34,195 nt of DNA from Candidatus Vecturithrix granuli (GCA_000739535.1 DF820483.1:1-34195); one strand, 5' to 3'; positions 1-33,209 are shown, counted from the stretch's first letter. The notes: generated by a model from the letters alone, not told the origin. Numbers and translations are program-made.

Positions 1-174
1 TTCAACCCCGAAGTTGCTGGCATTGGCATTAACAGTAAGACCCCTGTGGTAGCCGGATACGGTATGAGCGCGTCTGGTGCTACAATCAGTATGCCGATCT
101 ACACGCAGGAAATTGATCCTGTAAAGCACGCTGCCGATCTTGGTTATGAAGTTTCTCAGAGGTTAGGGTTGTAA
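1..174 (+). CDS. Tape measure protein, C-terminal end (partial)
   Basis: Frame 1 is open from the first base and ends with TAA at 172-174, giving the last 57 residues of a larger protein (ends YEVSQRLGL). The next gene starts at 174 in a TAATG overlap. Its place directly before the distal tail and hub genes is the usual place of the tape measure protein, which sets tail length and lines the tube. Only position and this short tail support the call. A copy of the dispersed word CCCTGTGGTA lies inside at 42-51. Confidence 0.6.
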   Translation, partial: FNPEVAGIGINSKTPVVAGYGMSASGATISMPIYTQEIDPVKHAADLGYEVSQRLGL

Positions 175-1418
175 TGGCTGCGCCAACACTCAACACCTAC
201 GAATACCAGTTTATGGATAGCGGAGTGCTGCTCAATAGGAGTGGCACTCCGCCATTCGTAGATGTGACTAGTATCAAAGGGTTAGATTTACCTACAATTG
301 ATGATTACGAAGCTGACTTTGATGGTAGGCACGGCGGTTACATTTATGCTCGCTATGTCAAGAGTCGTACTATCGTTATCGATGGCATCTTATATGCGTC
401 GGCTGCTACAGCTGACGTAGCAATTGAAGCACTTATTGCTAATTTTGTGCCCCGCGAAAATGATGCGCCATTCTACTATCGCGGAGCAGGAATTGCACAG
501 CGCTATATCATGTGCAAACCAATTGGGTTCAATTTCAATATTGACAATCTAAGGAACTATGGCGCGTGTCAGATTCAGATTCAATTAAAAGCTGGCGATC
601 CGTTAAAGTACGCAGACAACGCGGACGTAGTGGTAACGTCTGGTACTACAGGAACAGTGACAAACGACGGAAATGCCGAAACTTTCGGTGTGTTCGACCT
701 ATCAGGCGCAGCTTCCAAAGTGTCAATCGTAAAAGTCTCGACTGGTGAAACAGTAACTGTTACTTATACAACTGATGCAGACGACGCTATCACTGTTGAT
801 TTTAAAAATCGAGCCTGCTATATCAACGGTGTCAGAAATTCCACATATCTAACATCACTTGGTTGGTGGTCCTTTAATCCAGCAAGCTCAACTGATTTCA
901 AAATCCTATCTGTTGGCGTAGACACCATGGTAAATGGTAACTGCGAAGCTAACTTCGGCGCTGGATATGCTGTTGGTGCTAACTGGACTGGATTACAACA
1001 GTTTACGGGCGATAAGCATAGTGGTTCTAAGTCACTGAAAATGACGCGCAAGAACAAGACTGCCGGTGGCGGTACAGTCACTGTCCCCACAGGCATCACA
1101 GGGCAGGCAGCAGGCACCTACACAGCCTCAGTGTGGCTCAAAGGCACCATGCCTCACGCTAACATTGAAGTGTATAACGGCGCTGCACAGGTTGCTTCTC
1201 TTGTATTAGTTCCTGTTAGTTCGACAACTTGGCAAAAATTTCAGCTTACCTATACCTTAGCCGCCACTGGTGGCGCTATTACATTCGTAATTAGTGATAC
1301 GGGCGAGGCAGCAAGTAAACTTGCTAAGAATAAGGTGCTGTTGATGGATGATTTTAGTATTCGTTCCGTGAATAGTGGTGTCACATGTACTGCTCATACT
1401 AAGGATGGATGGTTATAA
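174..1418 (+). CDS. Distal tail protein (Dit-like) with carbohydrate-binding-like C-terminal domain
   Basis: 414 residues. The N-terminal half (about 1-150) has the pattern of siphovirus distal tail or minor tail proteins, including the VDVTSIKGLDLP and YIYARYVKSRTIVIDG stretches, which form the ring joining the tube to the tip. From about residue 255 (NGNCEANF...) to 385 a jelly-roll-like segment resembles carbohydrate-binding modules (SGSKSLKMTRKN; TYTASVWLKGT; WQKFQLTYTL). Such inserts are known in Dit proteins and may help to bind the cell wall. The start follows the tape measure end by a one-base TAATG overlap, and the same junction recurs at its own end. Family by pattern; sugar binding inferred. 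Confidence 0.75.
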   Translation: MAAPTLNTYEYQFMDSGVLLNRSGTPPFVDVTSIKGLDLPTIDDYEADFDGRHGGYIYARYVKSRTIVIDGILYASAATADVAIEALIANFVPRENDAPFYYRGAGIAQRYIMCKPIGFNFNIDNLRNYGACQIQIQLKAGDPLKYADNADVVVTSGTTGTVTNDGNAETFGVFDLSGAASKVSIVKVSTGETVTVTYTTDADDAITVDFKNRACYINGVRNSTYLTSLGWWSFNPASSTDFKILSVGVDTMVNGNCEANFGAGYAVGANWTGLQQFTGDKHSGSKSLKMTRKNKTAGGGTVTVPTGITGQAAGTYTASVWLKGTMPHANIEVYNGAAQVASLVLVPVSSTTWQKFQLTYTLAATGGAITFVISDTGEAASKLAKNKVLLMDDFSIRSVNSGVTCTAHTKDGWL

Positions 1419-2464
1419 TGGCCGATTATGTCATGCGATTACAGAATCGTGATGGCAGTTACATCGGTGAGATCCCTTTTTATGAGCTGCAAGGCGAATT
1501 TCGTATGAATGAGCCGGATGAGATTAGGTTTAAAACGAGTTCTGCGAACTTAAAGACCTACGTTGATCCCGTTACGCAGCTTAAAGAAGGGTTAACTGAG
1601 GTTAATCTGCTGCGTAATGGGAACAGCATCTTTCTTGGACCTATCTGGGATATCACTGTATCAAGTGAAGCTCATGTAATGACCATTATGGCACAAGATG
1701 TTTCCAGTTATCTTGGTCAGCGCTACATTATGGCTGATACGAAGTTCACAAAAAAGCGTTTTGCATATGCGGCATGGAAGCTTATTCAAGATACACAGGC
1801 ATTAACCTACGGCGATCTTGGAATTACACTTGGTCAGGATGCACCTACTAGTCCTACAGGTAGTTTTAGCTTCACTAAAAAGTCTGGAACTTCAATTCTG
1901 AAAGCGCTCGATAAGCTTTCAGCTGGTACCACAGGGTTCGATTGGGAGATTAATCCGAGTCGGCAGTTGATGTTATACTACCCGCGAATCCAAATCCCGT
2001 CATTAATTACACTAGAGTATCCAACTGTAATTAAACGGTACTCTGTGCAGGGCATGGGCAAGTATGTAGCTAACAGTGTCTTTGCTAAAGGTGCTAATAA
2101 AGAGATTTCAAACGTTTACTCTGATGCTGCATCACAGCAATTGTTTGGTTTAAGGCAGTATGTAGCATCTGATTCGTCTATCAAATCGAAAACAAAGCTT
2201 GATGCATATGCTCGAAGCGTGCTTAATCTACGGAAAAACCCTCGTTTAATTCCGCAGTTGACACTCGACGTCGAAAAAATGAACCCATTTGAAGGCGATG
2301 TTGGCTATGGATGGCTTATCAATACCATCATTGATGATGGGTGGGTGCAGTTTAACGGTATAATGCGTTGTTCTGGGTATCAATTAACACTCGGAAAGCA
2401 CGGAAATGAAACTTTCGTGCTGTACATCAACGACACTAGAGAGATTGAGGACACTAGCTCATGA
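1418..2464 (+). CDS. Tail hub / minor tail protein, ReqiPepy6 Gp37-like
   Basis: 348 residues if started at the ATG in the TAATG overlap at 1418. An ATG nine bases upstream (1409) is in frame but lies inside the previous gene, and the previous junction uses the same TAATG arrangement, so 1418 is preferred. The opening (YVMRLQNRDGSYIGEIPFYE) and the LLRNGNSIFLGPIWDI stretch match Gp37-like actinophage proteins, which relate to the gp27/Tal hub at the tail tip. This protein should connect the distal tail ring to the fibre encoded next, whose start overlaps it by ATGA. Confidence 0.75.
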   Translation: MADYVMRLQNRDGSYIGEIPFYELQGEFRMNEPDEIRFKTSSANLKTYVDPVTQLKEGLTEVNLLRNGNSIFLGPIWDITVSSEAHVMTIMAQDVSSYLGQRYIMADTKFTKKRFAYAAWKLIQDTQALTYGDLGITLGQDAPTSPTGSFSFTKKSGTSILKALDKLSAGTTGFDWEINPSRQLMLYYPRIQIPSLITLEYPTVIKRYSVQGMGKYVANSVFAKGANKEISNVYSDAASQQLFGLRQYVASDSSIKSKTKLDAYARSVLNLRKNPRLIPQLTLDVEKMNPFEGDVGYGWLINTIIDDGWVQFNGIMRCSGYQLTLGKHGNETFVLYINDTREIEDTSS

Positions 2465-5463
2465 GAACTCCTACATTAACTGACATCATTAAGGATCTTC
2501 GTGAAACTAGTGAGGCCCTTGATGCTACAGATGTTGACTTTGGCGATGAAGAAAACGCCAATGTTGAAGTTCCTACAATTACATCAATGACACCTACCGT
2601 CACATACTACGCTTCTCCGGTAACTAAGACTCCGTATGCGCGTATTCAGTGGACCTGGGTGGCTCCTGTTATGCATGATGAAGATGGCAACGTTATTAGT
2701 CCGACAGATCCTGATATTCTTGACGATGTAACCTTTGACCCTGTGGTAGATTACATGTTCGGGACCGCGCTAAACGGTGCTACTCCCACAACATTCGCGT
2801 CTACGAAAGGATCTACATCTGTAATTACGCAGGAACATCCTCTCGGATCAAATGTTACAGGTACAGTTTATGCTGTGCTCAAGAGTGGCATTAAAGGACC
2901 TGCGTATTCTGTTGAGGCAACAGTCAGTAAGGATACGACAGCACCTAATCGGCCGTCTACACCTACGCTAACGTCTAGTGCGTCTATTATCTCAGTAATT
3001 TGGGATGGGTTAGATTATCTTGGCAATGCACAACCGAGCGACTACAATAACACTGTGGTATATGCCGACGCATCAAACCCGCCGACTACTCCTGTTGGTA
3101 TTTTAACTGGCCGTGGCGTTTGTGCATTTCATGCCACAGCAGGTTCTACGATTTATGTGCAATTAGTCTCGCAAGATATGTCGTATAATCAGAGTGTTGG
3201 TAGTACGGTAGTCAGTATTGTTTCGCAGTCTGTTCTTGACGATACTGGTTTGGCAGATGCTCTTGCAAATAAGGCTGTTATTTACACACAGACCGCTGAT
3301 CCTACTACAACTCTCCCTGTTGGAACTGTTAAAAATGGCGATTGGTGGTTTAAAACTAACGCAACAGTAACATCGCAGATCGATATGATCTACAAGCGTG
3401 TATCTGGCGCATGGGTAACTGATACTATTAATGCAGCTGATGTTATTGCGGCTCAAAGTATTGTTTCAAATAACATCGCTGCGAATGCAATTACAGCTAA
3501 TAAGATCCTGGCTGGTGAGTTAGCAGCTAGGTTAGCTACTACTGGTGAATTACATGCTGACATTATTAATGGTGGCATTATTAATGCTGCGATTACTATT
3601 TCCGCTGCTTTACAGACAGCAGCTGTCGGCACACGTTGTACTCTTGATTACTCCGGTTTCAAGATGTACGTACATAATACTGTGACAGGAAATGATGACA
3701 TTGTTATCAATTTCGATGCTGTTACAGGATTGGCATCATTCTTCGGCAATGTTGTGTCGAACAACTTGATTGCTAATGGTGTTGTAACCCTCAACTCTCC
3801 GACGAATATTATGAATCCTAACACAGCATTGATTTTGTACTCAGGCATTCAGCCTCCGTCGTCCGGCCCGATTGTCACAAATAAATGGGATAGTGTACAA
3901 TTAAAGAACTCCGACGGGTCGAATGCGTCTCCGACATTTGTTAGTCGAATGTCTGATGGTAAATTTGTTGGAATGTCTGGCATTTTTCAGACAGTCCGAT
4001 ACACTGTTTACAATGCAAATGGTACTTGGAATCGTACGATTACTCCGTCTAATTTTGGTCCTAATCGTGATTATGGATTTGGCCCTGGCCTGCATTTACT
4101 AGTTGTTATTGCTGATTATGCGTATTCAATTGGCGTTAGTGGTGATGATGGTACTACAAACTATTACTTTGATATCCTAGCTACTAATTTAACAACCGGG
4201 GCAACTGTTGTATTCTACGGTCCTGGTGGTACTAAATGGAAATTCCCGATGAGCGCATCTCCGAGATTAGGAACCGATGGGTCTAATCTGATTTTGTCGT
4301 TCGGTACCACAATTCGTATGTACAGTGTTTCTCGTACTGGTGAAACATATACTGTTACTTATACAGCCACAAAGTCGAATATTATGTCTAATCCTGATGC
4401 TATTATGCGCGGTACATTAGATACCGGTACTGATAGCTTCTTGATGAGTAGCGGCAGTTCTAATATGCGTATGTGTTTGTATTCAACTATGGTTGAGAAT
4501 ACGAATGGCGCTATTCCACAGGCTGCTTCTGGAACTAATATTGGTCTTGGATATTATTCGAGTGTTTATTGGTGTGCGAAATCTGGCGGTGCAGTTTACT
4601 TCTACAATGGAGTTTCTCTGAGCACGCCTACAGCAACTCGAGATTTTGGAATTACTTACTATAACACGGCTCCGTATGAGTCGAAAATGTCTCCGCGGAC
4701 GACTGCGACAATCAAACGACTCGCTAAGATCAACTTGTCTGCTTCTGGTTGGTCTCCCGGTGTTCCCGATGCAAACGTTACACAGCTTCGTTATTACGGT
4801 GGCGCAGTTGCTGGAACTGTATATGCTCAGGGTAATAACGCAAGTGGTCAGATCGTACTGACTTCGCTTGCTACGTCTGGTGGTACACCCCCTACTAGTT
4901 CAAGTTTCCCTGAATCTGCTCCTGCTGTAATCAGAAACAGTGATTCGTCACTCATTATTTCTGGCGATGGGACAGTTAAAGTTCCTCCGACAAAATTGCG
5001 TGGATTCCCAATTAAATGGACAGGATATTTAGCTTCTAGTGTGTCTTGTTCAACAAATGTGTATCGATCATTAAAACCAAGTTCTCGTATTAATTATACG
5101 GGAGAGTGGGAACCCACATGGGCTTCCGGGGAAGACCGTTTCACAATTGGTTATCATTGTTGGGTTCGTATTGTTTGGAAAGTGCATTTTGACAATACAA
5201 GTACGGCTGGTAACAGGCTTGCTGCTATTTATAAGAATCCTGCATCCGGAACAAATACAAGTTCTAGTGAGCCAGCTGGCCGACTTGTGTGGGCAAAATC
5301 CGCACCCTCTTCTGACTATACTGCATGTTTAGCAATTTGGGAGGGTGAGGTTCAAGCAACTGACACTATCATGTTAGTTGCCAGAACTTCATCTACAACC
5401 AATGCGCAACATGGTATTAGTCATACAACAGTCAGTATTACAATTGAGCGTATGCTGGATTGA
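2461..5463 (+). CDS. Large tail fibre / receptor-binding protein
   Basis: 1000 residues, starting in an ATGA overlap with the hub gene. In order: an N-terminal attachment part; a fibronectin-III-like segment around 155-250 (APNRPSTPTLTSS...); a segment around 270-400 with GDWWFKTN, YKRVSGAWV and IAANAITANKILAGELAARL typical of trimeric tail-tip fibres; a long Ser/Thr/Gly-rich beta region (about 450-850) that could be a propeller, with recurring short motifs such as LGTDGSNLILSFG; and a C-terminal head (about 880-1000) with C1q-like alternation ending VSITIERMLD. It is the main candidate for host recognition. Domain folds beyond the fibre assignment are inferred. Confidence 0.75.
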   Translation: MRTPTLTDIIKDLRETSEALDATDVDFGDEENANVEVPTITSMTPTVTYYASPVTKTPYARIQWTWVAPVMHDEDGNVISPTDPDILDDVTFDPVVDYMFGTALNGATPTTFASTKGSTSVITQEHPLGSNVTGTVYAVLKSGIKGPAYSVEATVSKDTTAPNRPSTPTLTSSASIISVIWDGLDYLGNAQPSDYNNTVVYADASNPPTTPVGILTGRGVCAFHATAGSTIYVQLVSQDMSYNQSVGSTVVSIVSQSVLDDTGLADALANKAVIYTQTADPTTTLPVGTVKNGDWWFKTNATVTSQIDMIYKRVSGAWVTDTINAADVIAAQSIVSNNIAANAITANKILAGELAARLATTGELHADIINGGIINAAITISAALQTAAVGTRCTLDYSGFKMYVHNTVTGNDDIVINFDAVTGLASFFGNVVSNNLIANGVVTLNSPTNIMNPNTALILYSGIQPPSSGPIVTNKWDSVQLKNSDGSNASPTFVSRMSDGKFVGMSGIFQTVRYTVYNANGTWNRTITPSNFGPNRDYGFGPGLHLLVVIADYAYSIGVSGDDGTTNYYFDILATNLTTGATVVFYGPGGTKWKFPMSASPRLGTDGSNLILSFGTTIRMYSVSRTGETYTVTYTATKSNIMSNPDAIMRGTLDTGTDSFLMSSGSSNMRMCLYSTMVENTNGAIPQAASGTNIGLGYYSSVYWCAKSGGAVYFYNGVSLSTPTATRDFGITYYNTAPYESKMSPRTTATIKRLAKINLSASGWSPGVPDANVTQLRYYGGAVAGTVYAQGNNASGQIVLTSLATSGGTPPTSSSFPESAPAVIRNSDSSLIISGDGTVKVPPTKLRGFPIKWTGYLASSVSCSTNVYRSLKPSSRINYTGEWEPTWASGEDRFTIGYHCWVRIVWKVHFDNTSTAGNRLAAIYKNPASGTNTSSSEPAGRLVWAKSAPSSDYTACLAIWEGEVQATDTIMLVARTSSTTNAQHGISHTTVSITIERMLD

Positions 5464-5469
5464 GAAATT

Positions 5470-5886: not shown

Positions 5887-5900
5887 AGGACCACTGCAAA

Positions 5901-6185: not shown

Positions 6186-6205
6186 GTTGAAATACGAGGA
6201 GAAAA

Positions 6206-6361: not shown

Positions 6362-7544
6362 GGCTATGCAGAAAGTCGCTGATTTACTTGTATATTCTAA
6401 TATCGGCTACGATCAGAGTCAGCGCTGGACTTTCTTAGACAAGAAAAATAAAAGGATCGTTAAGAATGGCGAATGTGATTGCTCTACGTCAAGTGGAGCT
6501 ATTGCATGGCTTGGTGGTTATCCTGTCGATCTATCTGGAACGTTCTATACTGGTAATTTTGCAAAGCGTCTGGCTGCGGCCGGATTCATTGTAATCCCGT
6601 TCAAGAGTCTGTCACAGGTTAAGGCTGGCGATTTCTTGTTAACTCCTGGCCGTCACGTTGTATTTGCTCGCACAGCTAAGAAGTTCTTCTCAGCAGAGGT
6701 TGATGAGCGTGGACGATCGGCAGGTGGCAAGGCAGGCAACCAGAACGCCCGTGAGACGCGCTACCGGCTCGCCTACGTGCGTCCGGGCGGCTGGCGCTAC
6801 ATTGTGCGACCCGTACCGGCTGTCACCTACAAAGGCCGTTCACTGAAATACTTCTCCACAAAGAGTAGCAAGTTTAGTGAAGCTATGCGAATGCTGACGT
6901 ATACAGCACCGTTTGATGGCCCGCTTTACAACGAGTTTTACAATGTGTGGACTGTTCGTAATAAAGGGATGCAGCATATTTATGACGCAACTGCCGTTGC
7001 GGTACCACAGGAATCTCACGCTTTCGTAGTGCTCGGGTCCGCGCTTAATACTGATGGTTCTCTTCGATCTAAGTATAAGCGTCGTCTTGATTTGGCTGTC
7101 ACAGCACTCAATAGCAATCCGAACTCTGTGGTAATCGTATCTGGAGGTGCCGCGAGGAACGGTAAGACAGAAGCTGAAGTTGGTATGACGTATCTTGTTA
7201 ATGCTGGCATCGATGGGAAGCGTATTATCCTTGAAGAGGCATCGAATAGCACAGTCGGAAACGCTAAATACTCTGTTCCCCTCATGTTAAAGAAGGGTTT
7301 CGAGAGTTACACGCTTATTTCCGATGCAAGTCACCTTCGACGTGCTGCTATGCTATTTGATGCGGCTAAACTTCGCATCGAAACAGATAGTAATCGACGA
7401 TTTACTCTTCAGTTAGTCAATACTGTCGCATTTAAAGACTCGGATTCTACAGAAAAACCTGTGGCATCTGATGCTTTGTTTGAGATTGGTAAGGAAGTCG
7501 CTTATCTTCTCGGTATTTCCGCGCAGTTCAACGCTGCTAAGTAA
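6351..7544 (+). CDS. Endolysin: NlpC/P60-type (Amidase_5-like) peptidase fused to a DUF218 (YdcF/SanA/ElyC-like) domain
   Basis: 397 residues. The ATG at 6351 is chosen because GGAGGG precedes it; an in-frame start at 6300 would lie inside the acidic gene without a ribosome site. Residues 1-153 form a cysteine peptidase-like domain: catalytic pattern D43-C44-S45 (GECDCSTSS) and His102 (PGRHVVFA), with ending GWRYIVRP, as in phage peptidoglycan hydrolases. Residues about 223-345 are a DUF218 domain: FVVLGS, VVIVSGGAAR, EAEVG, EEASNSTVGNA, SDASHLRRA. Cellular DUF218 proteins such as ElyC and SanA act in envelope homeostasis, so this is an uncommon partner for a lysin. A GC-rich patch (about 6716-6835) sits exactly where the peptidase domain ends, suggesting a recombination joint. 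Confidence 0.8.
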   Translation: MTIKAMQKVADLLVYSNIGYDQSQRWTFLDKKNKRIVKNGECDCSTSSGAIAWLGGYPVDLSGTFYTGNFAKRLAAAGFIVIPFKSLSQVKAGDFLLTPGRHVVFARTAKKFFSAEVDERGRSAGGKAGNQNARETRYRLAYVRPGGWRYIVRPVPAVTYKGRSLKYFSTKSSKFSEAMRMLTYTAPFDGPLYNEFYNVWTVRNKGMQHIYDATAVAVPQESHAFVVLGSALNTDGSLRSKYKRRLDLAVTALNSNPNSVVIVSGGAARNGKTEAEVGMTYLVNAGIDGKRIILEEASNSTVGNAKYSVPLMLKKGFESYTLISDASHLRRAAMLFDAAKLRIETDSNRRFTLQLVNTVAFKDSDSTEKPVASDALFEIGKEVAYLLGISAQFNAAK

Positions 7545-7854: not shown

Positions 7855-7886
7855 TCTCACCATAAAACCTACCCCCTGTGGTGAGA
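7855..7886 (+). promoter_or_regulatory. Hairpin formed with a copy of the dispersed CCTGTGGT word
   Basis: TCTCACCA (7855-7862) and TGGTGAGA (7879-7886) form a perfect 8-bp stem around a 16-base loop. The right arm includes the dispersed word at 7875-7883. It lies between the holin and the main terminator. Whether it acts as RNA or as a protein-binding site is not known. Confidence 0.4.
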
Positions 7887-8121: not shown

Positions 8122-8618
8122 TTTCGGTATCCTAGATCAAGTAGTTGTTTTCTAAATTCAATTTCGTATGGCAATCCTCGAAGTTTAAACTCGTCATTGT
8201 TTACAACGAAGTAAATCAGGTGTCGCATTCCGTCGTTTGCGTGCCTGTATGCTTTGGTGTATAAATTGAGTTCTTTGAGAATATTGTCCGATACGAAACC
8301 TTTCGCTTGTGCAGGAGTTTGCTGGAAAAGAGCGATTCCCCTTCTTCTACACCAACCTTTGATCGTTCCAATATACTCACGAGAATCGAGCCTGAGTCCT
8401 GCCCGAGAGGTATTCCGGTAATCGAAAGTTTCGTACACAACAAACAATCGATCGACGTCTCTGGAGTGCTTGTCAAGAAAATCCTCGAGTTCTATGTGGT
8501 GTTCTTGTGGCCCAAGCTGTTTGACCTTAAATTCAGGCACTACAGTTGTATCATTAACCGTCGCCATAGCTACCCCTGTGGTACCACCTGGGTCAAATGC
8601 GATGATTCTAGTTTTCAC
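8118..8618 (-). CDS. RuvC-like Holliday junction resolvase
   Basis: 166 residues with an RNase H-like fold pattern: Asp9 in AFDPGGTTG, Glu63 in FVVYETF, the QTPAQAKG stretch (100-107), and the His/Asp cluster HANDGMRH (126-133). These are the acidic metal ligands and C-terminal motif of phage RuvC-like nucleases, which cut branched DNA during recombination or before packaging. It overlaps both neighbours by ATGA, inside the replication operon. Confidence 0.8.
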   Translation of the reverse strand: MKTRIIAFDPGGTTGVAMATVNDTTVVPEFKVKQLGPQEHHIELEDFLDKHSRDVDRLFVVYETFDYRNTSRAGLRLDSREYIGTIKGWCRRRGIALFQQTPAQAKGFVSDNILKELNLYTKAYRHANDGMRHLIYFVVNNDEFKLRGLPYEIEFRKQLLDLGYRK

Positions 8619-8932
8619 TGGAATAACTCATACGTAGCTTCGAAAATATCAGGCTTACACGGATAGAATTCACCTTTAATACCTCTGATGATGTAATCAC
8701 CGACATTAACGTGATGGAATCCTTCTAGTGTAGCAATCATCATCCGTCCGTCGCGCGGATCAATACTTACCCCACTTTTAGGACACGGAACTTTGCCTTC
8801 AATTACCGCTAACGGCTCAAATGATCCGGCAGTATTCTGCTCAATCCATTGATAGATGGAATATAGATTTGCATTGTCTCCAACAAATTGACGAGCTTCG
8901 ATAACAACAGGCTTCTTTTTATATAAACTCAT
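8615..8932 (-). CDS. Conserved phage protein (GDYIIRGIKGEFYPCKPDIF family)
   Basis: 105 residues. The C-terminal motif GDYIIRGIKGEFYPCKPDIF (about 78-97) followed by ATYE is widely conserved in otherwise uncharacterised phage proteins, as is the N-terminal KPVVIEARQF. It overlaps the polymerase stop and the RuvC start by ATGA on both sides, so it is translated with the replication genes. Function unknown. Confidence 0.75.
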   Translation of the reverse strand: MSLYKKKPVVIEARQFVGDNANLYSIYQWIEQNTAGSFEPLAVIEGKVPCPKSGVSIDPRDGRMMIATLEGFHHVNVGDYIIRGIKGEFYPCKPDIFEATYELFQ

Positions 8933-11340
8933 GATAGCTTACCCCATGACTTTCCAACAGACGCGTCAACAGCAAATTTCACATAACCTTCAACAGCTTC
9001 ATCAGCAGACTGTAGCATAAAATTGCTAACCACATCCGTAATGTGTTCGACCTCATCATCGTGACATTCCACCATAATAGCATCATGCACAAGATTAAAG
9101 ATGCGAGGATGATTTTCGTAATCACAATTCTGCTCAATCCACTGATTAAATCGTGTTGCTGCACGGAGACAGATATCAGAAGCAGTAGACTGAGGCATAA
9201 ATGCAAGAGCCTCATTCATAATGTTCTTGATATTCTCATCAGTCAATAGAGTGTACCGACGGTGACGACCGAATGGCGTAACTAAATCTTCGCCATCCTT
9301 GACCATCTTACGGATTGACTTCTGCCAATTGACAATCTCAGGAATAACAGAGAAGAACTTCTGCATATGCCCACGAGCTACTTCTACAGGAATTCCGAAT
9401 CCGTGCGCGATACCGAACTCCGTGCGCCCATAGTTAAGACCATAGACATACGTCTTAACCATAGTACGTTCTTCTTTCCAGAGACGGCACTCATCACACT
9501 TGCATTTATCAACATGATTCTGCGGCTTTACTGCTCCGGGATATAGAACAGGAACAAGTTCATCGAACACATCACGATCACTGTCATTGAAGATTTCAGT
9601 GAAGTAGTGATCGCCAGCAAAGTATGCTAATGTACGAAGTTCCGCCTGTGAATAGTCGATGTTGATGAATGAGTTATCCGATCGACTAGGAATGTACATC
9701 GTTTTGATCGGAGAATCTCGCGGAATATTCTGCAAGTTTGGATTTCGACTAGAGAGTCGTCCTGTAGTTGTCCCATGCAGAAGATACGAACTATTGATCC
9801 GGCCCTTGTAAAGACGATCTTTGACACCTGTAATATATGTGCCATTGAGCTTTGTTTCCTTACGATACTCTAAGAGCATCGTAGCAAACTTGCGAACAAG
9901 TTCGTCATTATTTGGGAAAGGCTTCTCGTACGCAAGTACGTTAAGCATCGTATCTTCGTCAGTAGAATCTAACCGAATTCCAAGATCCATAAAGAGCTTC
10001 TTGATCTGCAATGGTGATGCAGGATTAATTCCATCACCACGAGTATAGCCTTTAGGATTGACCTCATAAGCCATCAGAGACATAAAATGCTCTTTGCGCA
10101 TAATTGAAAGATCAAACTCAGCAGCTAAATTATCAAGATACTCTTTGTCGATAGTAATACCTTCGTATTCAACGTCCATCAACATATCAGACGCTTCACA
10201 CAAGAATCTATGAAGTTCAGTTAATCCATGCTCTTCAAGAAGAACTTCAAAGTACTTCTTTAAGAGATAAGTACATTCTACGTCGTAGGCATTGTATCTG
10301 TACAGAATCTCCCGAGGAATCTTTGAGAAATCTCGCTGAGGCCCAATGAATTTCTTAACCTCGTCGTCGTATGCAGGTGCTCCGAGGAACTCCTGAGCCA
10401 TATATTTAAGTCCATGAGTTCCAGTCCGTTCGTCGAGACAATACGAGGCGAGCATTGTGTCAAACCCAAGTTTCTGCTTACCAACATATGGACGCATTCC
10501 ATTGAGGTCAAACTTTCCATTCTGAGCTACAACGTTACATCGCAACATCATCTGTTTAATGATGAGCCAGACTTCTGCATTAAGCGCATTGTCAGTAATA
10601 ACGCGCGGCATACCATCATCAAATTTCATACCAACACAAAGCATAACGTGACGCTCTGGGTGTCCGAAACTCTCATCTTTGTCAATGGTACATTCAATGT
10701 CCATCGTAAGATCAGGAACATGCAGACGCGTAGTTGAACCTTCTGCATACAGCCAAGCTAATGCATCTTCGGGTGTATCCAGTACTTCAAAATCAGGCTC
10801 AACAAACTCTTTACCGTTGCTGAAAATCTTTCCGATATCTGTCACAAGATCAGGGAAACGAGCTTCCTGCATCATGCATACATATGGGTTTACAGTCGGA
10901 ATGACTTTATTCGGAATCCAATCTGAGCGCTTGAAGGGACCGACCCTCAACGCAGTCACACCCGTCCGCCCGAGGACGCTAGTGGCCGCCTCGTTGCCGA
11001 ACGTGACCACAGGGCCATCAGTAGCGGCAGCAATCTCGGCCAGCACACGTGGACGACAGGCAACTACTGCTTTAGCCGGAACTTTCTTATCTTCGGGACG
11101 GCAGAGAACGGCTGTAGTGTAGTAGTATGTAGGATTCTTCCCGTGATGCTTGAACACTTTAGAAAGCAGTTTTCCAGAGGTAGTGTTACAAAAACCACCG
11201 TTGTACTTTTCTGTTGCGCTCGGCATACCTCCCACGATTACTAAATCTGCCCTGTGGTCAGGAGAATCGTACCCCATAAATTCCGCATTGTTGTAAAGCG
11301 GGCAGTTCTCACAATCAGTTAACGGGTGTAGCGGTTCCAC
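8929..11340 (-). CDS. DNA polymerase, family A, with N-terminal uracil-DNA-glycosylase-like domain
   Basis: 803 residues from a GTG at 11340. An ATG 81 bases upstream (11421) is possible, but the GTG is preceded by AGGAGAGAATTTCA and overlaps the upstream gene far less. Domains: UDG-like with four cysteines in the Fe-S pattern (CENC at 10-13; the pair in VLCRP and VACRP); 3'-5' exonuclease (DIECT; NGKFDLNG; YNAYDVEC); polymerase palm with motif A DYSQAELR, motif B RTMVKTYVYGLNYG and motif C VHDAIMVE. The O-helix position is Tyr, as in T7. The usual UDG catalytic motifs are altered (GGMPSATE for GEAPG-type, NPY for HPS-type), so that domain may only bind. A CKCDEC insertion precedes motif B. 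It is the replicative polymerase. Confidence 0.88.
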   Translation of the reverse strand: MEPLHPLTDCENCPLYNNAEFMGYDSPDHRADLVIVGGMPSATEKYNGGFCNTTSGKLLSKVFKHHGKNPTYYYTTAVLCRPEDKKVPAKAVVACRPRVLAEIAAATDGPVVTFGNEAATSVLGRTGVTALRVGPFKRSDWIPNKVIPTVNPYVCMMQEARFPDLVTDIGKIFSNGKEFVEPDFEVLDTPEDALAWLYAEGSTTRLHVPDLTMDIECTIDKDESFGHPERHVMLCVGMKFDDGMPRVITDNALNAEVWLIIKQMMLRCNVVAQNGKFDLNGMRPYVGKQKLGFDTMLASYCLDERTGTHGLKYMAQEFLGAPAYDDEVKKFIGPQRDFSKIPREILYRYNAYDVECTYLLKKYFEVLLEEHGLTELHRFLCEASDMLMDVEYEGITIDKEYLDNLAAEFDLSIMRKEHFMSLMAYEVNPKGYTRGDGINPASPLQIKKLFMDLGIRLDSTDEDTMLNVLAYEKPFPNNDELVRKFATMLLEYRKETKLNGTYITGVKDRLYKGRINSSYLLHGTTTGRLSSRNPNLQNIPRDSPIKTMYIPSRSDNSFINIDYSQAELRTLAYFAGDHYFTEIFNDSDRDVFDELVPVLYPGAVKPQNHVDKCKCDECRLWKEERTMVKTYVYGLNYGRTEFGIAHGFGIPVEVARGHMQKFFSVIPEIVNWQKSIRKMVKDGEDLVTPFGRHRRYTLLTDENIKNIMNEALAFMPQSTASDICLRAATRFNQWIEQNCDYENHPRIFNLVHDAIMVECHDDEVEHITDVVSNFMLQSADEAVEGYVKFAVDASVGKSWGKLS

Positions 11341-11599
11341 TGAAATTCTCTCCTGACTTCCTAAAGCCTGTGGTACTACCTTGCGCAGCAAGGTACGATT
11401 CAATCGCGTCAACAAGAACAAATGTTCGTTGAATATGAAGGTTAGCCTGAGCTAACTGCCACTTCAATAATTCTAATGCTGTCTTAAGATCGCCTTCACC
11501 TGCCAATGCTGGAAGTTCGTCATTTAACGTCTCCATCATATTCATCATCAATACGATCGACGATTGCTGCGTTTCTTCACTCAATGCAATTTTCATCAT
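11315..11599 (-). CDS. Small helical protein between polymerase and primase-helicase
   Basis: 94 residues, mostly helical (ALELLKWQLAQANLHIQRTFVLVDAIESYL). It starts in a TAATG overlap with the primase-helicase stop and overlaps the GTG start of the polymerase by 26 bases. Its place between two replisome genes suggests a replication accessory, but no family was recognised. Confidence 0.65.
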   Translation of the reverse strand: MMKIALSEETQQSSIVLMMNMMETLNDELPALAGEGDLKTALELLKWQLAQANLHIQRTFVLVDAIESYLAAQGSTTGFRKSGENFSGTATPVN

Positions 11600-22810: not shown

Positions 22811-22827
22811 TTTTACACCCCCTTTCG

Positions 22828-22901
22828 TGGCGCTAGTGGGATTCGAACCCACACTGAATCGGGTTTAAGCCGACTTCCTCTGCCGTTTGGGATACAGCGC
22901 C
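22828..22901 (-). tRNA. tRNA with UAA anticodon (Leu, UUA codon), short variable loop
   Basis: A 74-base cloverleaf: acceptor GGCGCTG with TAGCGCC (one G-U), T arm GTGGG-TTCGAAT-CCCAC, anticodon stem GTCGG/CCGAT with loop CTTAAAC, anticodon TAA. The D stem is three pairs. The variable loop has five bases, whereas bacterial tRNA-Leu normally has a long extra arm. Late genes here use TTA often, so a UUA reader would help in a GC-rich host. Confidence 0.8.
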
Positions 22902-23002
22902 ATATAGGTGTGTAGTGCTTGCCCTCGGGACTACACGTTTCCATCACAGCCCGGAATCGATAGCTTATCTGTGAAACCTGTTAGAGTGAAGTAATCACTC
23001 CG

Positions 23003-23075
23003 TAGCGTAGACGGGACTCGAACCCGCACAACTCTGATTGAAAGTCAGAGAGACTAACCATTATCCTACTACGCC
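23003..23075 (-). tRNA. tRNA-Glu (UUC anticodon)
   Basis: A complete 73-base cloverleaf: acceptor GGCGTAG with CTACGCT (first pair G-U), anticodon stem TCTGA/TCAGA with loop CTTTCAA (anticodon TTC), T arm GCGGG-TTCGAGT-CCCGT. No CCA is encoded. Confidence 0.93.
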
Positions 23076-23305
23076 AAGCGCACGGAGATTCTAGTAGGTA
23101 TCCGTGACTAACTCCAACAATTACCTAGTTGGTTTCGGGCTATGTGTGCTCGCCCAAACATAGCGCAACTAGCTAGTATCTACTTTAACTAGCAATCGCT
23201 TGGCTCGACTAGACCGGCCAAGATTAAGGGAATAGTAGGTGGGTTTTTATGGCAGTCGCACATTAAGTCAGGTGACTGTAGCTGACGCCTACTATTCCGG
23301 CTTTA
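23076..23305. other. Non-coding, highly structured interval after tRNA-Glu
   Basis: No reading frame is convincing here. Several stems are visible: CCAAC/GTTGG (23114-23133), CTATGT/ACATAG (23140-23163), TTGGC/GCCAA (near 23201-23222), and the longest, 23229-23241 with 23286-23298 (13 pairs, one G-U), enclosing an inner CAGTC/GACTG stem. The last hairpin lies just downstream of the gene ending at 23306 and could end its transcript or be a small RNA. Confidence 0.45.
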
Positions 23306-23728
23306 TCAATCCTCGAACTCTTCCTTGGTATGAGCATCCATATCATCGGCATCGCTAACGTCCATAACCTGAACGTCACCGGACTCAATAAGCTGAGCAA
23401 TAATATCTTGCAGACTACTGCCCATTGCCTGCTGTTCCTCGGCATAACGCTTTGCATTATCACCAGCATTATACACAACTTCGCCCTCATTAATGATGGG
23501 CTTATTAGTGAAGTCAGAAAGATCAGCAAGCGTAGTGTTGATAGTACGTGTAATGTAAGTCTTCACATTCTCGCTGATAGCGAAGAAACTGAGGAAGTTA
23601 TTCGCGTTAACCCATTCCTCAATCTCAGCACGCTTATCAGCATCCTCTTCGATCATCGACCATTCCTTAGCAATAAGGCGGTCAACATCAATCACACGAA
23701 GAACAGCATCATTGCAACAACCTTCCAT
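23306..23728 (-). CDS. Hypothetical protein, downstream part of a possible frameshifted gene
   Basis: 140 residues if started at ATG 23728 (MEGCCNDAVLRVIDVDRLIA...). No good ribosome site precedes that ATG. The protein is acidic and helical (EEDADKRAEIEEWVNANNFL; DVSDADDMDAHTKEEFED). The short frame just upstream (23709-23843) has a strong ribosome site and ends inside this one; a +1 shift would join them. No family recognised. Confidence 0.6.
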   Translation of the reverse strand: MEGCCNDAVLRVIDVDRLIAKEWSMIEEDADKRAEIEEWVNANNFLSFFAISENVKTYITRTINTTLADLSDFTNKPIINEGEVVYNAGDNAKRYAEEQQAMGSSLQDIIAQLIESGDVQVMDVSDADDMDAHTKEEFED

Positions 23729-23843
23729 CAGTATCAGTGACGAATGTTCCAGCAGGGACCATGTAGGAAATGTACATTTCCACGATAGCCTTAAGATCAC
23801 GCTCTGCAACTTCCTCAGTCGTCTCGGCAGTTGTCTCAGTCAC
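23709..23843 (-). CDS. Short frame, probable N-terminal part of the following gene
   Basis: 44 residues (MTETTAETTEEVAERDLKAI then VEMYISYMVPAGTFVTDTDG) from GTG 23843, preceded by AAGGAGATTTAA, ending at TGA 23709-23711. The sequence looks like the beginning of a domain, and its end overlaps the next frame, which continues with protein-like sequence offset by one base. It may be a frameshift-coded N terminus, a separate small protein, or the product of an indel. Confidence 0.5.
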   Translation of the reverse strand: MTETTAETTEEVAERDLKAIVEMYISYMVPAGTFVTDTDGRLLQ

Positions 23844-24075
23844 TTAAATCTCCTTGAATTAAATCTTCCATTGCTTGACTTGCTTCTTCGTAACAGTCAC
23901 CACACAAACCAGTGTCAATGACTCGTAAATCTTCCTCGGTAGCTTCTGGCCAATAGTCTCTGACCTTGCCTATTGCAGCTAAAATCTTAGTGAAATGCTG
24001 GGATGGTACGCGGACAAATACAGTCAACCCACAACCCGGGCATACACGTACGTACGGTGTAGTTTTATTAGCCAT
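23836..24075 (-). CDS. Small zinc-ribbon protein
   Basis: 79 residues (MANKTTPYVRVCPGCGLTVF...). CPGC (12-15) and CGDC (58-61) make a treble-clef or ribbon; the rest is helical and acidic (EEASQAMEDLIQGDLSD). AAGGAGTTACG precedes the ATG. Its end overlaps the next gene's GTG by eight bases. Confidence 0.75.
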   Translation of the reverse strand: MANKTTPYVRVCPGCGLTVFVRVPSQHFTKILAAIGKVRDYWPEATEEDLRVIDTGLCGDCYEEASQAMEDLIQGDLSD

Positions 24076-24115
24076 ACGCCATCGTAACTCCTTATGTATA
24101 ATTGGACGATTTTCG

Positions 24116-24188
24116 AGCCTCCTGTGGGAATTGAACCCACGACCTTTCGCTTACAAGGCGAATGCTCTGCCAACTGAGCTAAAGAGGC
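24116..24188 (-). tRNA. tRNA-Thr (UGU anticodon)
   Basis: A complete 73-base cloverleaf: acceptor GCCTCTT/AGGAGGC (one G-U), D arm GCTC...GAGC, anticodon stem TTCGC/GCGAA with loop CTTGTAA (anticodon TGT, codon ACA), T arm GTGGG-TTCAATT-CCCAC. No CCA encoded. Confidence 0.95.
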
Positions 24189-24265
24189 AATCGCTGGCGG
24201 TGGGAGAACTTTGTTACCTAGAGCCTCGTATCCACACTTACCCGTAACATTGACCAGCATTCATA

Positions 24266-24769
24266 TCAAGCTTCGTGCTTGCCCTTATAACGATGCGAGA
24301 CCCAAAGTAGAATTGAGCCAGCAATAAGAACAGCGCCAAGCGTATACCAAACCCAAAGCGGATAATCAAAGCCAGTCTTAGCTAGTGAATCTCCGCCGAT
24401 ATAGACCTGCTTAGTTGCAGTTACCTTAACTGTAGCCTTTTCAGTCGCGGTCTCTGTAGCTGTCGCAGTTACCACAGGGGCAGTAGCTGTAACAGTTTCA
24501 GCAGGAAGCGTAGCTGTTTCAGTAACTACTGATGTGGCAGTTGCTGTAATTGTAGCGGTAGCTGTAGGTTGTGGGGCACATGGACAAGCACCTAGCTTAT
24601 CTCCATGAGCTTTATGTGCTGGCCAAGCACTTTCATCAATAGCAATCGTATGATTGTTATGACAAATCACTATCGGAGTATGACCTCCACCACCGCCTGT
24701 TGCAAATGCCGGTACTGTGAACAGCATCAACCCTGTGGTAGCAAATAAAATGCTAACCAGACGTCTCAC
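24266..24769 (-). CDS. Secreted cell-wall-anchored surface protein with LAXTG sorting signal
   Basis: 167 residues. A signal peptide (1-23, MRRLVSILFATTGLMLFTVP then AFA) is followed by a Gly run, a Cys/His head (ICHNNHTIAID, AHKAHGDKLGACPC, about 36-64), a Thr/Ala-rich stalk (about 67-120, many TAT repeats), then LAKTG at 129-133, a hydrophobic helix (137-157) and a basic tail (HRYKGKHEA). LPXTG-type signals with alanine second are recognised by class E sortases of GC-rich Gram-positive bacteria. A phage protein displayed on the host wall could alter adsorption by other phages, but this is inferred. It contains two copies of the dispersed word (24470, 24733). Confidence 0.8.
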   Translation of the reverse strand: MRRLVSILFATTGLMLFTVPAFATGGGGGHTPIVICHNNHTIAIDESAWPAHKAHGDKLGACPCAPQPTATATITATATSVVTETATLPAETVTATAPVVTATATETATEKATVKVTATKQVYIGGDSLAKTGFDYPLWVWYTLGAVLIAGSILLWVSHRYKGKHEA

Positions 24770-24795
24770 TAAATCCCCCTTTCATTAAACTTGCG

Positions 24796-24861
24796 TGCGC
24801 CCACAGAGACTCGAACTCTGGACCCGCGGATTAAGCGAGTAACCATTAACGCTTTATAACG
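24796..24861 (-). other. tRNA-like element, incomplete
   Basis: A good T arm (CAGAG-TTCGAGT-CTCTG) is followed by acceptor-like TGGGCGCA, and an anticodon-like hairpin CTCGC/GCGGG with loop TTAATCC lies upstream. The expected 5' acceptor strand (GCGCCCA) is absent: the sequence runs instead into the 3' end of the tRNA-Lys gene. It could be a decayed or recombined tRNA, or a tRNA mimic. Confidence 0.5.
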
Positions 24862-24933
24862 TGCCCCCGGGGAATTACGATATCCCGACCCTCCGCTTAA
24901 AAGGCGGATGCTCTTCCTCTGAGCTACGGAGGC
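24862..24933 (-). tRNA. tRNA-Lys (UUU anticodon), atypical T arm
   Basis: 72 bases: acceptor GCCTCCG/CGGGGGC (one G-U), D arm GCTC...GAGC, anticodon stem TCCGC/GCGGA with loop CTTTTAA (anticodon TTT), variable GGGTC. The T loop is ATCGTAA instead of TTCGAAT and the innermost T-stem pair is T-T. It may still function or be decaying. Confidence 0.75.
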
Positions 24934-25551: not shown

Positions 25552-25693
25552 CGCCCAAGCATCCGAACAAAAGTGCCAACAGCCTGTGGTGAGTAGTATT
25601 ACGTTGCCGCGTAATTTAACTACTCCTGTCAATTCAACCAGTTTGCTACTACATCGCCGGGAAGGACAGTCAGCAATGGAGCAAACAAACTGA

Positions 25694-26418: not shown

Positions 26419-26556
26419 CTACATGGTCCACTCTGGTGCCGAGAGGCACCGACCACAGGGTAGGTGGCTGGTGCGAGGCTTGGCGGTGACAGCCTGCCAG
26501 CCCGTGCCGGGACACTGGCCTAGGGTCAGTCTGTCGCGTGGCTCAGATCGGCACAC
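26419..26556 (-). CDS. Probable small GC-rich zinc-ribbon protein (45 residues)
   Basis: A frame from GTG 26556 to TAG 26419 encodes MCRSEPRDRLTLGQCPGTGW...LPCGRCLSAPEWTM. CPGTG followed by CGRC is typical of tiny actinobacterial and actinophage zinc ribbons. GC content is far above the neighbours, suggesting recent transfer. The ribosome site is weak. It contains a copy of the dispersed word (26451) and a GGTGCC/GGCACC hairpin (26434-26450). Confidence 0.45.
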   Translation of the reverse strand: MCRSEPRDRLTLGQCPGTGWQAVTAKPRTSHLPCGRCLSAPEWTM

Positions 26557-26735: not shown

Positions 26736-26742
26736 AGCAATT

Positions 26743-27475: not shown

Positions 27476-27478
27476 TTG

Positions 27479-27703
27479 TCAGACTCCTAGATTGATGAGA
27501 CGGATTTTGTCAGTAAGAAGCAGCGGGACTACGGATAGGTCACCATCCATATCCAAGAAAACAAACGTCACCTTGCGATAATACTCTGGTCCACCCTTGG
27601 GAAAGATGTACCCTTGATAGACTGAGCCACTTTCCATTGTGACTTCAACCCATGCCCTGTGGTAAGCTTCTGGATTAGCCAGAATCCTGTCAAGTTCCAG
27701 CAT
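27479..27703 (-). CDS. Small beta-rich protein (74 residues)
   Basis: MLELDRILANPEAYHRAWVE... Strand-rich pattern (VEVTMESGSVYQGYIFP; KVTFVFLDMDGDLSVVPLLL) resembling Sm- or SH3-like barrels. CGGAGCAGTAAT precedes the ATG. A copy of the dispersed word (27656) lies inside. No family recognised. Confidence 0.65.
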   Translation of the reverse strand: MLELDRILANPEAYHRAWVEVTMESGSVYQGYIFPKGGPEYYRKVTFVFLDMDGDLSVVPLLLTDKIRLINLGV

Positions 27704-27704
27704 A

Positions 27705-29902: not shown

Positions 29903-29920
29903 TGATCCGATTCCTTCCAA

Positions 29921-30391
29921 TCAGAGCGATTCAAGAATTTCGTGGATTCCGAACTCATAGGCATCATAGAGTTCAGACAAAACCGAGTAGTTTGTGTAAT
30001 TACCTGCTGGCGAATCACGTTCGGTGTTGTTCCAATCGCAGCAATCGCCGGGAGTGGAGTAAGGAACATACATCTTCACTGGAATTTCTTCAATTCCACA
30101 GAATGCTGCTGCAATAAGCCTGTGGTGCCCATTACCCATCTGGAAACTGCCGTTATGGTAGTTTACATTGATAGGACACACAAATCCGTAGCGAAGCAGC
30201 GAGTCAATCAAGTACCCCATCTGGTCGTCCATGATCTTTTCTTGAATTGCCACAGTGAACCAATGCTCGCCGTTCCATGGCACAACATCAACGGACGTAT
30301 CGATAGTCTTGATTAGCTTTGCAAGAGGAACTGTAACAACTACATCGTCCCGGAGTGCTTTGCGGAGTTTCTTGGCGATTTTCTTTGACAT
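29921..30391 (-). CDS. ParB/Srx-like nuclease-domain protein
   Basis: 156 residues from ATG 30391 (MSKKIAKKLRKALRDDVVVT...). The central FQMGNGHHRLIAAAFCGIEE followed by IPVKMYV is the ParB N-terminal signature (GxxRxxAA with an acidic/hydrophobic strand after it), preceded by a helix (QMGYLIDSLLRYGFVCPINV). ParB-like phage proteins range from DNA partitioning to nucleases and CTP-dependent clamps; this one lacks a clear HTH. Function inferred from the fold only. Confidence 0.6.
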   Translation of the reverse strand: MSKKIAKKLRKALRDDVVVTVPLAKLIKTIDTSVDVVPWNGEHWFTVAIQEKIMDDQMGYLIDSLLRYGFVCPINVNYHNGSFQMGNGHHRLIAAAFCGIEEIPVKMYVPYSTPGDCCDWNNTERDSPAGNYTNYSVLSELYDAYEFGIHEILESL

Positions 30392-30393
30392 AG

Positions 30394-30552
30394 CTAAACA
30401 GCCCATTCTGACAGCAGCGCATTGCGCCGACGATTCTGCTCCTTATTGATACGTCGCAGTTGACGACGCACCTTCTTTGTCTGTGGCATACTGAGAAGCT
30501 CAGTTACCATGAGAGTGAGTTCCCAATCAGGAACACGGCGATAACTCAACAT
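30394..30552 (-). CDS. Small very basic protein (52 residues)
   Basis: MLSYRRVPDWELTLMVTELL... then an Arg-rich helix (KKVRRQLRRINKEQNRRRNA). TAGGAGCAATAA is a strong ribosome site. The basic helix suggests nucleic-acid binding. It ends three bases before the ParB-like gene. Confidence 0.65.
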   Translation of the reverse strand: MLSYRRVPDWELTLMVTELLSMPQTKKVRRQLRRINKEQNRRRNALLSEWAV

Positions 30553-30723
30553 TTATTGCTCCTAAAAATCGGGGTTTCCCCAATGACTACCACAGGGGTA
30601 TGTAACAATCAAACGCACAAACCAAACCAGAACTATTGAGCCCATTGCTCGCCCGATTAATGTATTCGTCGTTTGTAGTTGGTTGTTTACACACCCTGTG
30701 GTAATCAATGGCCGAGACACCGA
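30553..30723. other. Intergenic leader with two copies of the dispersed word
   Basis: No gene. It holds the word on opposite strands at 30588-30596 (TACCACAGG) and 30695-30703 (CCTGTGGTA), 107 bases apart, and a small GGGG/CCCC hairpin just before the basic gene's ribosome site. The paired, inverted arrangement in a leader is the most operator-like context of the word. Confidence 0.45.
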
Positions 30724-30888: not shown

Positions 30889-30918
30889 TTTTCATTCTCT
30901 TTCTTTTGGTTGGCTAGA

Positions 30919-31197: not shown

Positions 31198-31207
31198 TTC
31201 AATTTCC

Positions 31208-31645
31208 TTACTTTGCTTGATTAACAGTGTGCCACATTTCGAGGATCTGCTTGTTGATGTACGCATTTGATGGGTTGAATTCGTTCTTTTCCGAGGACGT
31301 TTCTTCGGTCAGAACACATGAGGCGAGATAGAAATTGCTTTCAAGACGCGCGCCAAACTCACGAATCCAATCAGCAAGATCGACTTCAGACTCTGCATCG
31401 AAATCGACCATATCCAGAATCTGCCACATGTTGTAGAACTGAGCAGACGCATTGTTGTCGTTGAATCGGAACGGCCGATTGTGATGGACGCGATAAGAGA
31501 CTCCTTCAGAATGAACGAGGAAAATCTCTCCCGTGTTTTCGTTGATACCACAGGCATAGTGGTCAAAAGGCGCGTATTTCTGCAGTACCTCGCGGCCCGT
31601 GTCATTCAGCTTGTGGAGCTTGATCCCTCGTTTGCGTTCACTCAT
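31208..31645 (-). CDS. Hypothetical protein (145 residues)
   Basis: MSERKRGIKLHKLNDTGREV... A basic beginning, a strand region (YACGINENTGEIFLVHSEGV) and an acidic helical half (QILDMVDFDAESEVDLADWI). AGGAGAGAAAG lies ahead of the ATG. The word occurs inside at 31546. No family recognised. Confidence 0.65.
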   Translation of the reverse strand: MSERKRGIKLHKLNDTGREVLQKYAPFDHYACGINENTGEIFLVHSEGVSYRVHHNRPFRFNDNNASAQFYNMWQILDMVDFDAESEVDLADWIREFGARLESNFYLASCVLTEETSSEKNEFNPSNAYINKQILEMWHTVNQAK

Positions 31646-31663
31646 TGTTTGTTTCTTTCTCTC

Positions 31664-31846
31664 CTAGAAAGGTTCGACTTGCTCAACGCGGCGATAACAA
31701 TCCCTGTTACCTTGCTTATCAGTGTGATGGCATTCCCAATAACCAGTAATGAGTTGCCCCTTGAACTTGAAAGCATAGAACCAATAGTTTGACCGAGCGT
31801 GACCACAGGGGGCACGCCCGATCAACTTAAGCCACCAGTTTTTCAT
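31664..31846 (-). CDS. Small Cys/His/aromatic protein (60 residues)
   Basis: MKNWWLKLIGRAPCGHARSN... C14-H16 and ECHH (about 38-41) plus Cys50 may bind zinc. Starts in an ATGA overlap with the upstream stop. A copy of the dispersed word (31801) lies inside. Confidence 0.6.
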   Translation of the reverse strand: MKNWWLKLIGRAPCGHARSNYWFYAFKFKGQLITGYWECHHTDKQGNRDCYRRVEQVEPF

Positions 31847-32130: not shown

Positions 32131-32144
32131 TTCAGTTTCCTTTG

Positions 32145-32477: not shown

Positions 32478-32568
32478 GATTGTAGATCCTTTCCAGTAAA
32501 CAAGTCACGGTGTTGTGATCTTGTGCATCTACAGTTTGTTGCGTTTGTTGCGTTTATTACGTACTGCC

Positions 32569-32620
32569 GTGAGTTGCTGGGAATCGAACCCGACCTAGTT
32601 TCTAGGCCAGAAAGACTCAC
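32569..32620 (-). other. tRNA-like element 3
   Basis: On the - strand GTGAGT pairs with ACTCAC (6 bp) around a T-arm-like GGG-TTCGATT-CCC and a CCTAG-AAA-CTAGG hairpin that resembles the long variable arm of class II tRNAs. Farther 5' (to about 32690) AGAGTTG could pair with CAACTC as an alternative acceptor, giving an oversized tRNA-like RNA of about 115 bases. Confidence 0.4.
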
Positions 32621-33209
32621 ATCTTTCTAGTTCATTGGGAGCTAGTTGTTAGCTTTACTCCTATGATTATCCATTCAACTCTACCACTAATCAGATTAAC
32701 ATAACTAGCTAATCTGACTAGATTAACTGGTTAATCTGACTAGATGGGTATATCACTACAATTGTTATAAAGGTTCTAGAAAGTTCCCCACATTACTCTA
32801 TCTCTCTCTCTATTGTATATATAGTGTATTTGTGTGTTAGAGTGTATAGAGAGGTATGTTGTAGTAGGTACCTTGTTGTGTTCTATGTACACCTAGAGAG
32901 ACGCATTTCGATAATGGCCATATCTTTAAGATAGTTGAATACCAATTGGTATTGAACCCAAAACCAAAGGTATCCTAAGCGCCTACCGTAAGATATAGTT
33001 ACTACTTTTGTATATCTATCCAATACCATGTTATCCTGCCTGGTATTGACCCTCTACCCAAAGATATACAATCACTGCCCCCGGCTGGCTTGCCCCCCCC
33101 CCTGTGGTACTAGCGAGCGTAGCGAGCGGCCCCGGAAATTAAATCCGGCGCTGGGCTCTCGATTTTTTCATGATGGAAACTTCATACAGTGTCCCGTCCC
33201 CGCCCTTTT

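Follow-up and report, generated by a model that had tools for sequence, protein, structure and literature searches.

Primases usually recognise sites of 3–5 bases, which are far commoner than the sites actually used. The primase of plasmid pRN1 requires GTG and, with ATP, starts opposite the bases immediately 5' to this trinucleotide (PMC8076596), and the replicative PrimPol of phage NrS-1, with GTGA/GTGG and TTTGGTTA as sites, favours GTGA/GTGG with the first base upstream as the start (PMC8718748). A paper from 2025 names GTG as the strong site of both enzymes (PMC12205980). RSF1010 RepB' acts at specific single-strand start sites, ssiA and ssiB, two per plasmid (PMC4538821). For phage T7, with (G/T)2GTC as the sites of gp4, about 14–26 sites have been proposed to be used, 1–6 kb apart (PMC12839067). 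Other short, dispersed and asymmetric words are Chi, which is read by the host, the stoperators of cluster A mycobacteriophages, which are repressor sites, and the start-associated sequences of actinophages, which precede genes and coincide with ribosome binding sites (PMC7302621). Here we describe a dispersed word with the core CCTGTGG in a stretch of 34,195 nucleotides filed under Candidatus Vecturithrix granuli (GCA_000739535.1 DF820483.1:1-34195; in the following "the window"), which belongs to a phage genome. We consider it quite probable that CCTGTGG is a genomic priming site, where the PrimPol-type primase encoded by the phage itself would start primers on single-stranded DNA.

The window comprises the first 34,195 bases of a contig of 47,441 bp (C1), identical in sequence to IMGVR_UViG_2619619283_000001. 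Because its ends overlap by 67 bp, C1 is most likely a complete circular phage, with a circular length of 47,374 bp. The window contains 27 copies of the 8-base word CCTGTGGT (15 on the plus and 12 on the minus strand), 18 of which continue with A, and 14 copies of the exact longer form CCCTGTGGTA; the runner-up among unrelated 8-mers reaches 10 copies. An earlier note on this DNA had given 26 copies, 17 of them continuing with A; its observation is confirmed, with both figures corrected. Over the whole of C1 we found 32 copies of CCTGTGGT, 41 of CCTGTGG (34 within the window) and 16 of CCCTGTGGTA, where an order-2 Markov model expects 0.93, 3.4 and 0.04, respectively. In 300 codon-preserving shuffles, the kind of randomisation that the note had proposed, CCTGTGGT averaged 2.0 and never exceeded 8 copies, and CCCTGTGGTA averaged 0.19 with a maximum of 3. 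The word is thus a real feature of the phage. Most sites are located inside predicted genes, on either strand and in all reading frames, and non-coding DNA carries sites too, as previously noted. These data support selection on the word as DNA, regardless of reading frame and transcription, and in this respect the earlier interpretation is borne out.

Conservation in relatives, which the note had named as a further check, points in the same direction. G002, a relative with 64% identity over the alignment and about 70% within blastn segments, retains 6 of 13 sites at the same aligned position, compared to 6.9% of random 8-mers. A seventh, at 7875, is probably conserved as well, and G002 has gained sites elsewhere in about the same number as it has kept. 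A scan with the terminase yielded 80 loci of a broad environmental phage clade. In 71 of these, new to the analysis, CCTGTGG ranked second of 8,192 canonical 7-mers by enrichment (353 vs 130), and in 30 whole records CCCTGTGG totalled 327 copies vs 44 for the reversed word. In many whole records, with GC contents from 32% to 57%, CCTGTGG leads all other 7-mers, and none of its one-mismatch variants is clearly enriched over the clade. The core is a strict 7-mer, CCTGTGG, which is invariant across the phages of the clade. The flanks vary from phage to phage, with CCCTGTGGTA in C1 and CCCTGTGGGT in G043, G045 and G046. In C1 the preference is for C on the 5' side and TA on the 3' side, giving CCCT-GTGG-TA; the 8-base core originally described is slightly too long, the TA at the end being a preference of C1.

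To which gene does the word belong? Primase homologues in named phages were located by tblastn. A strong word containing TGTG was found in 10 of the 13 named and control records with the N-terminal PrimPol domain and in 0 of 13 without it (Fisher P 1e-4); the threshold for a strong word was chosen after the data had been seen, with a wide gap between the lowest positive (8.7) and the highest control (6.2). Each of the ten phages has its own top word, all built on TGTG: GTGTGCC/GGTGTGC in Amigo, CCTGTGCT in Nonagon, TGTGCCT in CMP1, CCTGTGC in Yappy and Jojan60, CCTGTGG in ctfzr933, both CCTGTGG and CCTGTGC in Strzyga, GGTGTGG in Muddy and GTE2, and GTGTGGC in Tlacuache. The hosts of word-bearing phages belong to several phyla and include Mycobacterium, Gordonia, Arthrobacter, Curtobacterium, Clavibacter, Serratia, Brevundimonas and Stenotrophomonas; a host factor is thus an improbable reader. 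Of the replication genes of C1, the N-terminal PrimPol part alone was detected in every one of the ten word-bearing phages and in none of the word-less controls. When contigs new to the analysis were picked by the PrimPol domain alone, CCTGTGG ranked first of the 8,192 7-mers (414 vs 134), in comparison to rank 6,178 (41 vs 52) in control contigs with a TOPRIM primase. We used the 7-mer test here since a 6-mer rank test on loci of 20 kb was underpowered. G038, which at first seemed word-less, carries GTGTGGG 39 times vs 11.

The proposed reader is encoded at 11599–13809 on the minus strand. It is a PrimPol-type (archaeo-eukaryotic) primase-helicase (PHROG DNA primase, 3e-95; Pfam RepB_primase, DUF3987 and HTH_45), consisting of an archaeo-eukaryotic primase (AEP) domain at about residues 6–207, a helix bundle at about 211–310, a DUF3987 helicase-like domain at 415–656 and a weak C-terminal winged helix. 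An AlphaFold model of the N-terminal 340 residues has a predicted local distance difference test score (pLDDT) of 91.7. Its AEP domain matches the S-2L PrimPol (6zp9) and RSF1010 RepB' (3h20) with a Z-score of 18.5 over 171–180 residues, and the catalytic acidic residues of the DxD motif and the third D (D92, D94, D150) are invariant in sets of 14 and of 36 sequences. For the helix bundle (residues 211–310), modelled alone, the top 11 fold matches are all helix bundles of AEP primases: pRN1 is best with Z 8.4 (95 aligned residues, 3.5 Å), a value near 8 that needs care for helical bundles, with DNA-bound pRN1 (9rtj) at 7.8, RepB' at 7.1 and NrS-1 at 6.3; the first unrelated fold scores 5.3. 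Foldseek alone did not score these helix-bundle matches as significant, and a sequence-profile search against solved structures returned only RepB' (E-value 0.1). Going by its predicted fold, the helix bundle is of the GTG-binding pRN1 type.

The distances between sites add a further constraint on the reader. Among genomes that carry the word in the set picked by the terminase, same-strand pairs below 1.5 kb are depleted (220 vs 313 expected) and distances between opposite strands are random; below 100 bp there are 3 same-strand pairs vs 21 expected, and 23 opposite-strand pairs vs 21. In the set picked by the primase, same-strand pairs below 1.5 kb number 60 vs 126 expected and opposite-strand pairs 138 vs 141. 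The effect recurs, though weaker, when ten named phages are analysed by the word of each (0–250 bp, same strand, 40 vs 87). Since the repulsion acts on the same strand only, the word is read one strand at a time, with each strand covered separately. Such a pattern suits a reader that is directional or acts on single strands, but not an ordinary operator. In C1 the spacing per strand is 2.1 and 2.6 kb, and all sites of C1 taken together are not evenly spaced (coefficient of variation of the gaps 0.82, P 0.18). Paired inverted sites acting as one unit were rejected, as the same-strand depletion accounts for the excess of inverted close pairs. Eight control words showed neither the strand-wise pattern nor an excess of close pairs on opposite strands.

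If CCTGTGG is read by the primase, the helix-bundle domain would grip the GTGG of the template, while the first nucleotide would be placed by the AEP active site opposite the T immediately 5' to GTGG; primers would then begin with 5'-AGG(G). The genome would be selected for one site per about 2–2.6 kb on each strand irrespective of genes and frame, and lagging-strand (Okazaki) synthesis could resume at regular intervals during copying of either strand. The words do have T directly 5' of GTG, the position at which pRN1 starts primers (PMC8076596), and the pRN1 primase ORF904 (AEP and helix bundle; PDB 3m1m, 6gt7, 9rtj) is alike in domain order and predicted folds. However, pRN1 is a small plasmid for which the accessible text describes no genomic tiling, whereas the phage has a 7-mer in dozens of selected copies. 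NrS-1 PrimPol likewise is a phage replicative enzyme reading GTGG, but the accessible part of that report (PMC8718748) notes only that GTG sites far outnumber TTTGGTTA and reports no over-represented, strand-tiled word. RSF1010 RepB' (PDB 3h20, 3h25) resembles the phage enzyme in its AEP fold and in having specific single-strand start sites, though with two per plasmid instead of dozens. In T7 priming sites are spread over the phage genome with a spacing like that of C1 per strand; its TOPRIM primase is unrelated, its sites far outnumber those used, and the accessible text mentions neither over-representation nor same-strand repulsion. Literature searches on CCTGTGG words in phages, over-represented primase sites and dispersed actinophage repeats returned nothing matching.

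More generally, it seems likely that PrimPol phages have shaped their whole genomes into arrays of strand-specific priming sites, one per 1.5–2.5 kb on each strand, the word differing between clades around a TGTG that never changes. The genome sequence alone would then serve as a priming map that reveals primase specificity and Okazaki start points, word statistics would predict primase specificity for hundreds of uncharacterised phages, and Muddy, GTE2 and Amigo would offer direct laboratory tests of genome-encoded priming. This bears on the question of what sets Okazaki start points, as this virus family seems to encode rare, strict and spaced words under selection.

Several observations weigh against a role in priming. 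The core of 7 bases is longer than the 3–5 bases known for most primases, and in five PrimPol carriers no TGTG word was found (Frankenweenie, EhyElimayoE, UFV02, G034 and G025). For C1 alone the same-strand repulsion is not significant (19 vs 25.3, P 0.10). Both strands of C1 carry similar numbers of sites, with no fork polarity; strand polarity was also rejected as proof of a link to the replication fork because in Muddy and others it is mostly an effect of composition. Flank preference fails to track PrimPol divergence (rho 0.16–0.19; for RuvC divergence 0.41), and flank co-evolution with any single protein proved uninformative. Finally, the relatives share ancestry so that counts are not fully independent, and the control phages, PAK_P5 among them, are few and mostly GC-rich.

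Among the other explanations, a Chi-like site, already listed as an alternative in the earlier note, fares best but is still unlikely. Here a recombination nuclease-helicase would stop or switch at the word in a directional manner, so that both orientations are required; the enzyme would be either the phage's own RecB/Cas4-like exonuclease (15447–16613), acting together with Sak4 and the SNF2 helicase, or AddAB/RecBCD of the host. A strict, asymmetric 7-mer tiled strand-wise at Chi-like density is closer in kind to such a site than to an operator, and the phage does encode a PD-(D/E)XK nuclease, a Sak4-like (RecA-like) ATPase and an SNF2-type helicase. The distribution of genes fits less well than for a primase site: Wollypog and Karate have homologues of the nuclease, Sak4 and the SNF2 helicase as well as of the terminase, but lack both PrimPol and word. 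Furthermore, the words recur, with variation about a single core, in phages whose hosts belong to different phyla. A host Chi is disfavoured on this ground and because neither of two genomes counted shows enrichment: the chromosome of the same assembly, not shown to be the host, has 179 copies of CCTGTGGT in 8.34 Mb (one per 47 kb), and a SAR202 metagenome-assembled genome, likewise not shown to be the host, has 61 copies of CCCTGTGG vs 64 of the reversed word.

It is quite improbable that the word is read elsewhere in the replication module, for instance by the SSB-like protein, by the RuvC-like resolvase or, within the primase polypeptide itself, by the DUF3987 helicase and the C-terminal winged helix. 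These travel with PrimPol in most relatives, and RuvC divergence is the best correlate of flank preference. On the other hand, no RuvC was detected in five phages that carry a word (Muddy, GTE2, Tlacuache, Strzyga and ctfzr933), and no SSB-like protein in Nonagon, CMP1 and Muddy; PolA was not detected in the word-bearing CMP1 and Nonagon. Muddy, GTE2, Tlacuache and Strzyga match the C1 primase only in the N-terminal PrimPol part, whereas Pioneer3, with the helicase half only, has no word.

We regard stoperator-like repressor sites, or sites of a nucleoid-type protein coating or silencing the genome, as very improbable. The earlier note had likened the layout to stoperators and listed a nucleoid-like protein site as an alternative. 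The scatter of asymmetric sites over coding and non-coding DNA and a modest intergenic excess (99 sites vs 65 expected) would suit them. Cluster A stoperators have a 13-bp consensus of the GGTGGMTGTCAAG type and tolerate mismatches; the phage word differs in sequence and length, and no one-mismatch variant is enriched. A double-stranded operator that is read in either orientation would not give repulsion on the same strand only, and we rejected an operator on this basis together with the missing mismatch gradient. No integrase or repressor was found among the genes tested, and no repressor gene was found in the family searches made, which did not cover every gene. The candidate DNA-binding proteins are not common to word-bearing phages: for the winged-helix protein (21042–21572) no relatives were detected in the named ones, and the AT-hook-like proteins at 25887 and 33448 were detected in fewer than three relatives, so none of these earlier candidates is upheld as reader. 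Start-associated sequences do not match either, as they are placed upstream of start codons and the majority of the sites are within predicted genes, whichever the strand; like Chi and stoperators, they do not fit strand-wise tiling combined with association to a primase. That the word serves DNA modification, as once suggested, restriction or uptake is extremely unlikely: it is an over-represented asymmetric 7-mer with a density as in DNA uptake sequences, but restriction does not predict over-representation, uptake does not predict strand-wise spacing, and no linked methyltransferase was found among the genes tested.

In the window, CCTGTGG sites on the plus strand are located at 43–49 (ACCCCTGTGGTAG), 2740–2746 (kept in G002), 7458–7464 (followed by CA), 7875–7881 (within a local alignment to the G002 site at 11118), 8575–8581 (kept in G002), 11251–11257, 11367–11373, 13155–13161 (kept in G002 together with its partner at 13269), 15678–15684 (kept in G002), 20125–20131 (CTCCCTGTGGTAG), 24121–24127 (followed by GA and overlapping tRNA-Thr in antisense), 24732–24738, 25583–25589, 27656–27662, 30119–30125, 30695–30701 and 33101–33107. 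Those on the minus strand are at 1087–1093 (followed by GG), 1929–1935 (AACCCTGTGGTAC), 4516–4522 (followed by AA), 7005–7011, 11007–11013 (kept in G002), 11967–11973 (followed by GG), 13269–13275 (kept in G002), 15921–15927, 16259–16265 (followed by AG), 19096–19102, 19978–19984 (followed by GA), 21101–21107, 24472–24478, 26453–26459, 30590–30596, 31548–31554 and 31803–31809.

Other genes of the window, all on the minus strand, include a family A DNA polymerase (8929–11421) whose N-terminal part carries, in the same frame, a domain of the uracil-DNA glycosylase superfamily (Pfam PF03167, residues 55–183), four phage tRNA genes (22827–24933; Leu-TAA, Glu-TTC, Thr-TGT and Lys-TTT) and a ParB-N-like protein of 161 aa (29921–30406) with weak PHROG matches, which most relatives lack. 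A small secreted protein (24266–24769) with a signal-like start, a Thr/Ala-rich linker, a LAKTG sortase-like signal and a membrane anchor hints at a Gram-positive-type host. The assembly has 10.75% contamination and lacks WhiB. Its contig C4 (L016 13031–20000) carries an array of clustered regularly interspaced short palindromic repeats (CRISPR) with at least 97 repeats (GTGAAAACCCTAATAAAACCCTGGAAGGGATTAAAAC); the assembly's spacers gave no full-length match to the phage.

Further abundant words were noticed in the relatives. A second very abundant word, TATGTCCGATT / AATCGGACATA, occurs in part of them (L087, L080/G029, L085, L079/G028, L077/G026, L105/G038 and L106), and L087 carries 28 copies of ATGTCCGA in 9.6 kb. 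In G014 (132,904 bp; L032, L052, L053, L217–L221) AAAGGGA/TCCCTTT reaches 65 copies vs 11.6 expected, CGATNCCCA repeats lie close to the terminase, and CCTGTG followed by C, T or G is also enriched. GC-rich relatives (G007, G012, G021, G025, G042 and others) are strongly enriched in words of the TATATAATA type, which are possibly phage promoters.

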